Shown: piece by piece, positions 39,873 through 48,726 of the stretch
Layout of the letters: each line of letters begins with the position of its first letter
Position numbering within the stretch: the stretch's first letter is position 1
Assembly (NCBI RefSeq): GCF_014695375.1
Contig: NZ_JACJOG010000013.1
Location: 1-64,000, forward strand
Length of the DNA stretch: 64,000 nucleotides
Source: Coleofasciculus sp. FACHB-T130
Lineage (GTDB): Bacteria > Cyanobacteriota > Cyanobacteriia > Cyanobacteriales > FACHB-T130
Reading direction: 5' to 3'
Translations under genes and position numbers: made by a program
Notes under the pieces: generated by a model
The model's input: the letters and a program-made list of their open reading frames with translations, nothing else
Told to the model about the DNA's origin: nothing
Database searches by the model: none

Positions 39873-40523
39873 TCAGGTGCCAAACGTGCGATCGCCTGCA
39901 TCTCCCAGCCCCGGTACAATATACCCGTGGCTGTTCAAACCCTCATCAATCATTGCCGTATAGACAACCAAGCCCGGATACGCGACAGAAAGCTGTTGCA
40001 GGGCGGGTGGCGCTGCTACAACCGAAATAATCCGCATTAAAGCTGGGTCAACGCCTCGCTGTGTCAGTTCTGCGATCGCCCTCATCATGGTTCCACCCGT
40101 CGCCAGCATCGGATCGCAAATTAAAACCCGCGTTTGAGGGTCAAGCCGTTCCGGCAATTTATTCAGATAACAGCTAACTTCCAGGGTTTTCTCATCCCGC
40201 ACCAAACCGATATGGTAAATCGATGCCAAAGGCAGCAACGTCTGCGCCCCGTCTAATAACCCCAATCCTGCCCGTAAAATCGGCACCACAACCAGTGGCA
40301 CCTCTGGATTGATAAATGTAGCAGGACATTCAGCCAGGGGCGTCTGTACGGTTGTTTCTATCGTCGGCAACCATTCTCTAGTTGCCTCATAAGTCAGCCA
40401 GCGCCCCAGTTCCGTCATCGCGCTTTTAAACAGCACCGATGGCGTCGCAGCATCACGAGCAACAGCCAGCCAATGTTTAATCAGTGGATGGGGAGGAACA
40501 TAGACACGCAGTTGGAGAGTCAT
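39873..40523 (-). CDS. upp: Uracil phosphoribosyltransferase
   Basis: A 216-residue enzyme that makes UMP from uracil and PRPP (pyrimidine salvage). I take ATG 40523 (MTLQLRVYVPPHPLIKHW) as the start, where family members begin; the frame extends to 40556. The substrate-binding PRPP loop is VLICDPMLATGGTMMRAIAE near residue 128. Other family segments are VPILRAGLGLLDG and MIDEGLNSHGYIVPGLGDAG. The last is the uracil-binding end and the protein is complete. Confidence 0.95.
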   Translation of the reverse strand: MTLQLRVYVPPHPLIKHWLAVARDAATPSVLFKSAMTELGRWLTYEATREWLPTIETTVQTPLAECPATFINPEVPLVVVPILRAGLGLLDGAQTLLPLASIYHIGLVRDEKTLEVSCYLNKLPERLDPQTRVLICDPMLATGGTMMRAIAELTQRGVDPALMRIISVVAAPPALQQLSVAYPGLVVYTAMIDEGLNSHGYIVPGLGDAGDRTFGT

Positions 40524-40722
40524 AATTGCGATTTTGGCAGTCAGATGCCAGCTCAAAGACCTGACCTATCATAGAACCTCCTGGGATGTCTGAAAACCCA
40601 GATTGATTCTGGGTTCGGTTTCTTTGTCACCAAACCCCACGCCAAAAGCATTTGTGGGGTAACGAAAAGCCCACAATTCCAACTAACTTGGTTTTTTCTA
40701 TTGAAAATAACTTGCAATAGTA

Positions 40723-40751
40723 TTGACATATATTTTCAACAAGGCTATATT
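40723..40751 (+). promoter_or_regulatory. Consensus sigma-70-type promoter
   Basis: TTGACA at 40723-40728, a 17-nt spacer, and TATATT at 40746-40751. This is a near-perfect housekeeping promoter, with start of transcription expected at about 40758-40760. It points towards a terminator about 70 nt away rather than directly to crtH. Confidence 0.7.
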
Positions 40752-40758
40752 TATTTTC

Positions 40759-40829
40759 AGTGTTCTCCTCTCATTAAGGATCGGCAGGTGGGGCTGGTTA
40801 GCAGTAGCAAGCTAGTCCCCATTTTTTTT
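40759..40829 (+). ncRNA. Candidate small RNA or attenuated crtH leader
   Basis: About 70 nt from the predicted start to the end of a T-run. The 5' half is unpaired and pyrimidine-rich (TTCTCCTCTC). The 3' half is a terminator hairpin: TGGGGCTGGT (40789-40798) pairs with GCTAGTCCCCA (40811-40821) with one bulge, followed by eight T (40822-40829). The general plan, unpaired CU-rich segment then terminator stem, recalls small cyanobacterial RNAs such as Yfr1, but I see no exact match to a known family. If readthrough occurs it could be an attenuator for crtH. Confidence 0.5.
40789..40829 (+). terminator. Strong Rho-independent terminator
   Basis: A GC-rich 10-bp stem with one bulged base and a ~12-nt loop, then eight consecutive T. 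No plus-strand gene ends before it, so it most likely ends a short transcript from the promoter at 40723. Confidence 0.75.
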
Positions 40830-40960: not shown

Positions 40961-40984
40961 GTTAATCCCTAATAGGGATTGAAA
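40961..40984 (+). other. Solitary CRISPR-repeat-like sequence
   Basis: GTTAATCCCTAATAGGGATT followed by GAAA resembles the 3' half of common cyanobacterial CRISPR repeats (AATCCCTAxxAGGGATTGAAAC type). Only one copy is present, with no spacer array or cas gene, so it is at most a relic. The hairpin (AATCCCTAATAGGGATT) is also a simple palindrome. Confidence 0.25.
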
Positions 40985-41013
40985 TGAGTAAAATTTTCCC
41001 TTACTGCTGCCTC

Positions 41014-42537
41014 ATGCCTTCAACTACCGTTAAATCTCCAACTGCACAAACGTTTGATGCCATCGTGATTGGCTCTGGAATTGGAGGGCTGGTGACAGCC
41101 ACCCAACTGGCAGCGAAAGGCGCTGAAGTTCTCGTACTGGAAAGCTACTTAATTCCAGGTGGCAGTGCCGGATACTTTGAGCGGCAGGGATATCGGTTTG
41201 ACGTAGGGGCGTCGATGATTTTTGGGTTTGGGACTCAGGGCACCACCAATCTGCTCACCCGCGCTCTAGATGCTGTGAATGTCAGTCTGGAAACCATCCC
41301 CGATTCCGTCCAGATTCACTACCATCTTCCCGCCGGTTTGGATCTAAAAGTTCATCGCAATTATGAGAAGTTTTTGCAAGAACTCACTGCCTACTTCCCC
41401 CACGAACGGGAAGGGATTCGACGCTTCTACGACGAATGCTGGAAAGTTTTCAACTGCCTGAATGCGATGGAATTGCTGTCGTTGGAAGAACCCCGGTATC
41501 TGACACGGGCATTTTTTCAGCATCCCTTAGCCTGTCTCGGCTTGGTAAAGTATTTGCCTCAAAATGCTGGTGATATTGCAAGGCGATACATCAAAGACCC
41601 GCAGCTACTGAAGTTTATCGACATGGAGTGCTACTGCTGGTCAGTTGTCCCCGCTGACCGGACACCGATGATTAATGCAGGGATGGTGTTCTCAGACCGG
41701 CACTACGGCGGCATTAACTATCCTAAAGGGGGTGTAGGGCAAATCGCCCAAAAACTGGTGGAGGGACTGGAAAAAGCTGGGGGACAGATTCAGTACAAAG
41801 CCAAGGTGACGAAAATTATTACCCAAGAAGGTCGAGCGGTAGGCGTCGAGTTGGCAAATGGAAAAGTCTATGGAGCCAAGCGGATTATTTCCAATGCAAC
41901 GCGCTGGGATACTTTCGAGAAGTTACTGCCAGCGGAAGAAATGCCAGCGGCTGAGAAGAAGTGGCAAAATCGTTATCAGAAATCGCCGGGTTTCTTAAGT
42001 TTGCACTTAGGCGTTAAGGCAGATGTGCTGCCGCTTGGTACTGATTGTCACCACATTTTGCTAGAAGATTGGCAGAAGATGGAAGCGGCGCAAGGCACGA
42101 TCTTTTTGTCGATTCCTACGTTACTCGATCCGGATTTAGCACCAGAAGGTCATCATATTCTGCACGCCTTTACCCCTGATTGGATTGAAAATTGGCAGGG
42201 ACTTTCTTCTAGCGAATATGAACAGAAAAAGGAAGAGGCAGCAGGACGAATCATTGAGCGGCTAGAGAAGATTTTCCCCGGTTTAGATGCAGGGTTAGAT
42301 TATCTGGAAGTCGGGACGCCCCGCACGCATCGGCGCTTTTTAGGTCGTGCAGATGGGACGTATGGCCCAATTCCTAGAAACAAGTTATTAGGACTATTGG
42401 GAATGCCATTCAATCGAACTGCGATTTCGGGACTTTATTGTGTGGGAGACAGTACGTTTCCAGGGCAGGGTTTAAATGCGGTGGCATTTTCTGGTTTTGC
42501 TTGTGCCCATCGCGTGGCGGTAGATTTGGGGTTGTAA
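41014..42537 (+). CDS. crtH: Prolycopene (carotenoid) isomerase CrtH
   Basis: A 507-residue FAD enzyme that converts poly-cis prolycopene to all-trans lycopene after the zeta-carotene desaturases, at the membranes where carotenoids are made. The FAD-binding Rossmann motif is [19 protein letters not shown] near residue 20. Family segments are [39 protein letters not shown] and [20 protein letters not shown] near the end. I prefer ATG 41014 (MPSTTVKSP). The upstream in-frame ATG at 40984 sits on the CRISPR-like palindrome and would add ten unlikely residues. Confidence 0.93.
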
Positions 42538-42707: not shown

Positions 42708-43674
42708 ACCTGAGTTCGGGTTAAGCCGGAGGGAGGAAAAACGCATTGATATTGAGAGAGGGCTTCTTAGGCTGATGGCAATAGGCAATTAATCCACAGA
42801 CCAAATTCACCAAGAAATTGACCGGACTGCGATGCCTAGAATGCTCAATGTGAGAGATGTTTTTCAATTGGTCGATAATTGTCTCAATTATGGAGCGTTT
42901 GCGGATAAGCAGCTTATCTATCAGTGGCATCAGCTTATTCTTCATATTGCGCTTCGGCTTAGTAATCAGTTGAATCCCCATCTGGGTTAATAGCTGCTCA
43001 AACAACTTTTGCGATATATACCCTCGGTCAGCCACCACCTTACCAGACAACCCTTTGAGTAGAGTCAGCACAGGCTTACGGTCATCTATATTGCCAGCAG
43101 TGACAGCGATATTCAGCAGTTCCCCTTGGTCATTACAAACCAGATGTAGTTTAAAGCCGAAGAACCAATCTACACAAGTCTTACCTCGCCTGCCGATATC
43201 CTTGAACACCTTGTGGCTTTTGATTCGTCGGTTATGACAGACCGCAATCTTGGTCGAGTCCATTACAGACACACCTGTACACTGACCAAAACAACTGTGT
43301 AGATAGGTACTTAAAGGAATCAGGGTGGAAGGCATCCATTCTACAAAGCGTTGATAACTCACCAACTTGGGAAAGGCTGCACTCCACTGTCCATGTACCT
43401 TCTCTTGGTAAAACGCTTTAAAATTCCGGTAATGAGATTGATGAAATGCAATCTCGATGGTCATAATTTCGCTCAGGCACAGTTGACGATGGCGGTGGCG
43501 ATGTTTGAGTGCATCCCTCATCAGTTGTTTATGCCACAAAGGTTCAAAAAGAAGGCAGAAATCATCGACAGAGCAAAAAAGTTCTTCTAGACTAAGCATG
43601 GGACGAGCCTGTAAAGCTGTTGTGTGATGACTTTTAGCTTACTCGCTTGTCCCCTCCTTATCCCGAACTCAGGT
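42708..43674 (-). mobile_element. Complete IS982-family insertion sequence
   Basis: A 967-bp element. Terminal inverted repeats are ACCTGAGTTCGGG(T/A)TAAG, 18 bp with one mismatch. They are flanked by a perfect 7-bp TAATCTA duplication, so the insertion is recent or little changed. It holds a single intact transposase gene on the minus strand and sits in the toxin gene of a mazEF-like pair. Confidence 0.95.
42721..43599 (-). CDS. IS982-family transposase
   Basis: A 292-residue DDE transposase, apparently intact. DDE positions lie in GVSVMDSTKIAVC (Asp near residue 152), VVADRGYISQKLF (Asp near residue 210) and RSIIETIIDQLKN (Glu near residue 255). An N-terminal helical DNA-binding part is present, with the usual RHRQLCLSEIMTIEIAFHQS. 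It nearly fills the element, ending 13 bp from the left end. Confidence 0.95.
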   Translation of the reverse strand: MLSLEELFCSVDDFCLLFEPLWHKQLMRDALKHRHRHRQLCLSEIMTIEIAFHQSHYRNFKAFYQEKVHGQWSAAFPKLVSYQRFVEWMPSTLIPLSTYLHSCFGQCTGVSVMDSTKIAVCHNRRIKSHKVFKDIGRRGKTCVDWFFGFKLHLVCNDQGELLNIAVTAGNIDDRKPVLTLLKGLSGKVVADRGYISQKLFEQLLTQMGIQLITKPKRNMKNKLMPLIDKLLIRKRSIIETIIDQLKNISHIEHSRHRSPVNFLVNLVCGLIAYCHQPKKPSLNINAFFLPPA

Positions 43675-48429: not shown

Positions 48430-48726
48430 ATGGCTTATAAAGTAAGGTTAATTAACGAAGCCGAAGGGCTGGACACCACGATTGAAGTTGAAGGCGACGT
48501 CTATATTCTTGACGCCGCAGAAGATCAAGGTCTCGATCTGCCCTACTCCTGTCGCGCTGGTGCTTGTTCAACCTGCGCTGGCAAAGTGACTGAGGGTGAT
48601 ATCGATCAATCTGACCAGTCTTTCCTGGATGACGATCAGATTGAAGCTGGCTATGTCCTGACTTGCGTGGCTTATCCCAAGTCGGATTGCACCATCATGA
48701 CCCACCAAGAAGAAGAACTCTATTAA
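48430..48726 (+). CDS. petF: Plant-type [2Fe-2S] ferredoxin
   Basis: A 98-residue ferredoxin. It accepts electrons from photosystem I and passes them to FNR, nitrite reductase, thioredoxin reductase and others. The cluster ligands are Cys41, Cys46, Cys49 ([16 protein letters not shown]) and Cys79 ([10 protein letters not shown]). The C-terminus HQEEELY is typical of the major PetF. It is monocistronic and followed by terminator-like hairpins. Confidence 0.97.

Follow-up and report, generated by a model that had tools for sequence, protein, structure and literature searches.

A conserved small RNA gene between upp and crtH in Coleofasciculus sp. FACHB-T130 is very likely isaR1, with predicted iron-sparing targets

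The window, by which we mean the whole analysed stretch of 64,000 nucleotides of Coleofasciculus sp. FACHB-T130, contains a compact element at 40723-40829 on the plus strand, flanked by two divergent genes. On one side lies upp, assigned by its family model to uracil phosphoribosyltransferase (39873..40523, minus strand), which is a frequent divergent neighbour of the element; on the other lies the carotenoid isomerase gene crtH (40984..42537, plus strand; TIGR02730, 973.9 bits), its frequent downstream neighbour. The TIGR02730 match runs from residue 24, and the true start of crtH is probably the ATG at 41014. The initial annotation had placed the element on the plus strand upstream of crtH, in agreement with the position of this gene downstream of 40829. 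Just 5′ of the first crtH ATG there is a single palindrome, AATCCCTAATAGGGATTGAAA (40964-40984, plus strand), which resembles a CRISPR repeat (Rfam CRISPR-DR5, below the cut-off) and whose core was found, among the loci searched, only in this genome and in one congener (G001). Just downstream of crtH is a DDE transposase gene (42721-43599, minus strand; PF13612, 233 bits).

The element begins with a -35 hexamer TTGACA (40723..40728) and a -10 hexamer TATATT (40746..40751), separated by a spacer of 17 nt. The first is invariant in 30 aligned loci and present in 67 of the 70 distinct sequences of a wider set; at the second, TATA is found in 29 of the 30 loci, and TATC in locus L029. Downstream of the TATATT comes a CU-rich segment, GTTCTCCTCTC, followed by a hairpin. 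A conserved block starts at the A at 40759, 8 nt past the -10 hexamer, and the transcript predicted from there is 71 nt long (40759..40829, plus strand; length from the sequence), with a score of 92.6 bits under covariance model R1, in which this sequence is itself included. Reading from the same A, the RNA opens with AGTGTTCTCCTCTC; a brief A/T spacer leads to AGGATCGGCAGG, after which come the GGGG...CCCC hairpin and the eight T. The opening segment (40759..40772) is a 5′ seed of the anti-Shine-Dalgarno type, identical in all 30 sequences of alignment A1. The intrinsic terminator (40787..40829), which is indicated by folding and by covariation, consists of a hairpin at 40787-40823, with its GGGG/CCCC arms at 40790-40820, and the eight T at 40822-40829. 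The 72-nt stretch 40758-40829 folds with -23.8 kcal/mol (z -2.5), a value equalled by 4 of 200 shuffles. The TTGACA-17-TATATT promoter, the hairpin with eight T and the CU-rich segment that had been claimed for this site agree base for base with the sequence of the window. A peptide reading of the element was rejected: the start codons within the RNA open a 5-codon frame and a 14-codon frame with no stop, and loci differ in the length of the spacer that follows the seed.

As bare patterns, the promoter and the terminator are near chance for this region. Between 38000 and 44000, 10 promoter-like sites were observed where 7.9 ± 2.9 are expected, and 6 terminator-like sites where 6.5 ± 2.7 are expected; among the 10 promoter-like sites, only 40723-40751 matches at 11 of 12 positions. 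Such counts are what one would see if a promoter and a terminator stood here by chance and no transcript were made, but conservation and covariation over many genomes leave this explanation with almost no credibility. What stands above chance is thus the conservation, not the promoter and terminator pattern.

With 136 bases as query and E up to 0.01, blastn gave a match in 75 of the 100 genomes, counting the own one; in five of the 75 every match had an E above 1e-4. The positive genomes include every searched member of the genus (two genomes) and of the family (six). The TTGACA and the 14-nt 5′ end are common to all of the best-scoring 30 loci, and the T run after the hairpin is found in 30 of 30, beyond which the sequences diverge. 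Therefore, judging by these 30 loci, the conserved block corresponds to the promoter plus a transcript of about 70 nt. Seed variants are present in some of the more distant loci. Model R1 (E up to 0.01) found matches in 146 of 388 genomes at the level of the class and, where a completeness of at least 90 was asked, in 301 of 389 at the level of the order, both counts including the own genome; in one other family all 14 of 14 genomes were matched. The collected loci are not a random sample, since they are the best scorers of the blastn and R1 searches together with 20 more divergent or complete loci picked by hand. The own genome has a single R1 match, and a second, weaker one was seen in six genomes (G367, G446, G189, G273, G305 and G312); these second matches are possibly paralogues of the same RNA, which we identify below as IsaR1. 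In locus L031 (G058, reverse strand, 1477-1563) the spacer after the first seed holds a near-duplicate of the seed, GTGTTCTCTTC, and the RNA of this locus may carry two seeds. Searches of viral contigs (with one exact pattern) and of plasmids and phages (by blastn) gave no match, and there is thus no sign of mobility.

The hairpin is also conserved as a structure. In an alignment not fitted to the model, with 29 distinct sequences, 97% of the cells pair, as against 35-51% in slid versions, and changes on both sides of a pair occur in 24 cells versus 6.6 ± 2.5 in shuffles. Alignment A1 has 4 pairs changed on both sides, a count that 18 of 500 shuffles reach. In the model-fitted alignment of 83 distinct sequences there are 9 such pairs, 6 of them in the main terminator stem, and 57 doubly changed cells versus 7.3 ± 2.8 in shuffles, figures to be read with the bias of alignment A3 towards its own structure. 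The initial annotation held that a small RNA would be refuted if the hairpin had no compensatory changes in related genomes; such changes are present in both the unfitted and the model-fitted alignments. In the consensus fold, some bases of the seed are paired.

Two options had been offered for this transcript, a free small RNA or a leader whose premature termination controls carotenoid isomerase, and the gene order over 90 loci bears on both. (The set had been 92; L063 and L065, both adjacent to crtH, fell below the cut.) Counting neighbours in the sequence around the RNA, which mostly extends about 1.5 kb in either direction, so that absence refers to that stretch, upp and crtH flank the RNA in 62 loci, crtH alone is found in 9, upp alone in 12 and neither in 7. 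The hairpin upstream of crtH, whose conservation in relatives was to be checked, lies between upp and crtH in 62 of 90. If the RNA were a terminated 5′ leader of crtH, the consensus promoter would start a transcript that mostly stops at the hairpin and is extended by read-through into crtH mRNA. In keeping with this, 71 of the 90 loci have a crtH downstream in the same orientation, and no plus-strand promoter-like site is listed between the terminator and crtH. However, no crtH was found in the downstream stretch of 19 of the 90, 17 of them cleanly (the two unclean ones are L014, with 225 nt of downstream sequence only, and L061, with a short partial crtH-like match); RNA and crtH are separated by anything between about 40 and about 1000 nt; and the best-conserved part of the RNA is an anti-ribosome-binding-site seed that matches genes elsewhere. 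Since the RNA occurs without a nearby crtH and its spacing to the gene is loose, the leader is very unlikely. The seed has no notable complementarity to either neighbour, the longest matches being 4 nt in crtH and 5 nt in upp. Of the two options it is the free small RNA that stands, with its own promoter and terminator, compensatory changes and 19 of 90 loci without crtH; the leader does not, given its loose gap and the missing seed complementarity. All this suggests that the neighbouring crtH should not be read as a cis target. A functional meaning of the upp-isaR1-crtH order, in which read-through of the terminator from a Fur-controlled isaR1 promoter would yield low-level crtH transcripts besides a trans-acting sRNA, is a doubtful proposal, to which we give little weight; if true, one iron-responsive promoter would serve both the sRNA and a low level of carotenoid isomerase.

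We turn to the promoter of this small RNA, scored against the 7-1-7 site consensus of Fur, which we take to be TGATAATNATTATCA. An upstream Fur-box-like inverted repeat, TGAAAATAACTTGCA (40702..40716), and a second one, TGACATATATTTTCA (40724..40738), which overlaps the -35 hexamer, each match this consensus at 10 of 14 positions. On this consensus, the best 7-1-7 match in each of 70 distinct upstream sequences scores 10.8 of 14 on average, compared with 8.5 in mononucleotide shuffles. The 70 come from 78 loci; most of those dropped duplicate a genome in the set, and L071 is without the orienting pattern. At least 10 of 14 is reached by the upstream-box region in 40 of the 70 (5.5% of shuffles) and by the -35 region box in 59 of the 70 (3.2% of shuffles), where the -35 hexamer itself contributes part of the score; both boxes reach it in 32. 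In a control region lying further upstream, 1 of the 70 sequences attains this score, close to the rate in the shuffles of that region. Judged by these matches, the promoter carries two Fur-like sites at fixed positions.

The targets of IsaR1 that have been confirmed, as enumerated in a citing paper, are fed1, petJ, sufBCDS, sodB, petABDC1, acnB, hemA and chlN (PMC8136909). In the own genome and eight relatives we looked at petF, sufB, sodB, acnB, hemA, petC/petA and chlN, and measured, between positions -60 and +20 relative to the start codon, the longest exact match to the 15-nt seed complement. In the own genome this is 9 nt for sufB, 8 nt for petF and for chlN, 6 nt for the presumed sodB and for acnB, 5 nt for petC and 3 nt for hemA; the last two, although published targets, have no seed site in that interval here. 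As background, 224 other gene starts were scored: a match of at least 8 nt is found at 8 of them (3.6%) and one of at least 7 nt at 18 (8.0%). This background is noisy, since it is made of first-ATG/GTG calls on open reading frames of at least 100 amino acids and includes neighbours from related genomes; with the targets still included, 22 of 246 starts reach at least 8 nt. By a hand calculation, the binomial chance of three of seven tested genes reaching at least 8 nt is about 0.001.

A match of at least 7 nt is kept for petF in 8 of 8 genomes (G007, whose best ferredoxin match, L159, is weaker, was excluded from the nine), for sufB in 8 of 9 and for chlN in 9 of 9, counts which are not independent because the genomes are related. 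The conserved core of the match is mostly GAGAGGA in petF and chlN and mostly AGAACAC in sufB. The same threshold is reached for acnB in 4 of 9 genomes, for hemA in 2 of 9 and for petC in none of 9. The presumed sodB has 6 nt in five and 7 nt in three of 8 genomes, and the other superoxide dismutase of this genome 3-5 nt; which of these genes is sodB is our inference. Seed pairing, as predicted from these matches, lends support to some of the core iron-sparing targets but not to all that have been published. The predicted target petF, a [2Fe-2S] ferredoxin gene (48430..48726, plus strand), has TGAGAGGA at position -15 relative to its start codon. In four genomes (G000, G001, G002 and G005) isaR1 and petF share a contig, at a distance of about 7-13 kb. 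A further gene of the window, of the Dps/ferritin family (PF00210; 52739-53278, plus strand), carries GGAGAACAC where its ribosome-binding site lies; this seed match of 9 nt measures 8-9 nt in three close relatives and 6 nt in G004. The gene is a possible IsaR1 target absent from the published list, or the match could be that of an ordinary ribosome-binding site.

Which RNA is this? IsaR1, like the element described here, ends at what we take to be a Rho-independent terminator. The IsaR1 of Synechocystis PCC 6803 is described as a 68-nt RNA, with its start at 3164320, that is conserved in cyanobacteria (PMC6202907). It is characterized elsewhere as widely conserved, repressed by Fur and accumulating in iron starvation (PMC7760821), and as by far the most induced non-coding transcript in the iron-depleted Synechocystis transcriptome (PMC5386190); iron-induced Synechocystis sRNAs of about 70 and 80 nt, which we do not link to IsaR1, have also been reported (PMC3516471). 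Given the size of the RNA, the Fur boxes, the neighbourhood, its presence in Synechocystis and a seed predicted to pair at the ribosome-binding sites of petF, sufB and chlN, we propose that 40759-40829 (plus strand) very likely encodes IsaR1, the iron-stress activated sRNA, and that it acts as follows. In iron-replete cells, Fur on the two promoter boxes would keep isaR1 silent. Under iron shortage the RNA of about 71 nt would be transcribed, ending at its own terminator, and its 5′ CU-rich seed would pair with mRNAs that encode iron-using proteins, at their ribosome-binding regions and most clearly in petF, sufB and chlN, lowering the expression of these proteins. To the conservation, Fur-like boxes, terminator and seed complementarity seen here, Fur control, iron induction and target repression are added by analogy with published Synechocystis work.

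We base the name on the genus, the neighbourhood and the features of the RNA, and compare it with PCC 6803 IsaR1 through published descriptions of the latter. This comparison by description leaves some room for a rival reading in which the RNA would be a similarly built sRNA, also conserved in cyanobacteria but other than IsaR1: one of the Yfr1 or Yfr10 type, PsrR1 or one not yet described. So does the likeness to Yfr1, a short sRNA of about 70 nt with a CU-rich segment before its 3′ terminator (PMC4734099). However, the conserved Yfr1 motif is given as CACUCCUCACACC (PMC4734099) and is absent from the segment, which reads GUGUUCUCCUCUCAU; the Yfr1 of S. elongatus is placed between guaB and trxA, and PsrR1 is listed as 131 nt long (both PMC6202907). 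Yfr1 thus differs in motif and in neighbourhood. The RNA is also without a match in Rfam: at gathering scores no family matches the window as a whole, and with 431 bases and E up to 10 nothing was found on its strand within it, the matches in searches around it being only CRISPR-repeat-like or, on the minus strand, RT-6 below its cut-off. The Rfam check for a known family, for which the Yfr1 and Yfr2 models had been named, was therefore negative. Another sRNA is, on balance, highly improbable.

Several observations count against the IsaR1 identification. A pattern scan of named genomes (35 matches in total, 5 of them with cyanobacterial titles) found a seed variant in Synechocystis salina LEGE 00031 (L100), and this genome and presumed members of the genus score low with model R1, at 29-45 bits, their copies having the seed CTCTTCTC, with one base changed. 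The RNA is directly upstream of crtH in three of the four presumed Synechocystis-genus genomes looked at, and in the stretch surrounding these three loci upp was not found, only crtH being adjacent. The changed seed with the low scores, this absence of upp, the partly paired seed of the consensus fold and, among the published targets, the lack of a seed site at hemA and petC and the match of only 6 nt at acnB and the presumed sodB each weigh against IsaR1. A review citing the 2017 paper gives “upp, crtH” as IsaR1 targets (PMC13414033). Since upp and crtH exactly flank the RNA here, with seed matches of 5 and 4 nt only, this looks like neighbours misread as targets, and taken in that way the passage speaks for IsaR1.

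We conclude that the element is in all likelihood a real gene for a small RNA and an ordinary member of a known family; what is new is the presence, anatomy and predicted targets of IsaR1 in this organism. The likely main iron-sparing sRNA is thereby located in a genome whose window gave no Rfam match, and model R1 detects the RNA in hundreds of cyanobacterial genomes despite the lack of a matching Rfam family. The iron regulon of this organism becomes predictable, with petF about 8 kb off in the same window.

As to known systems, a passage on Trichodesmium IMS101 offers the guess that this organism is without such an sRNA, and E. coli work is cited there beside IsaR1 (PMC12090762). As far as citing papers describe the PCC 6803 IsaR1 of Georg et al. 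2017, the RNA reported here resembles it in its length of about 70 nt, its own terminator, the crtH neighbourhood, the Fur-like boxes and the wide conservation, and in a seed complementary to the ribosome-binding sites of petF, sufB and chlN. It differs from its Synechocystis-genus relatives in the seed, which is CTCCTCTC here and CTCTTCTC there, and from PCC 6803 IsaR1 in that a hemA or petC site was not found in this genome. RyhB of Escherichia coli is a Fur-repressed sRNA that spares iron by repressing the mRNAs of iron-using proteins. Compared by function only, and with no homology claimed, RyhB and the IsaR1 proposed here would work alike.
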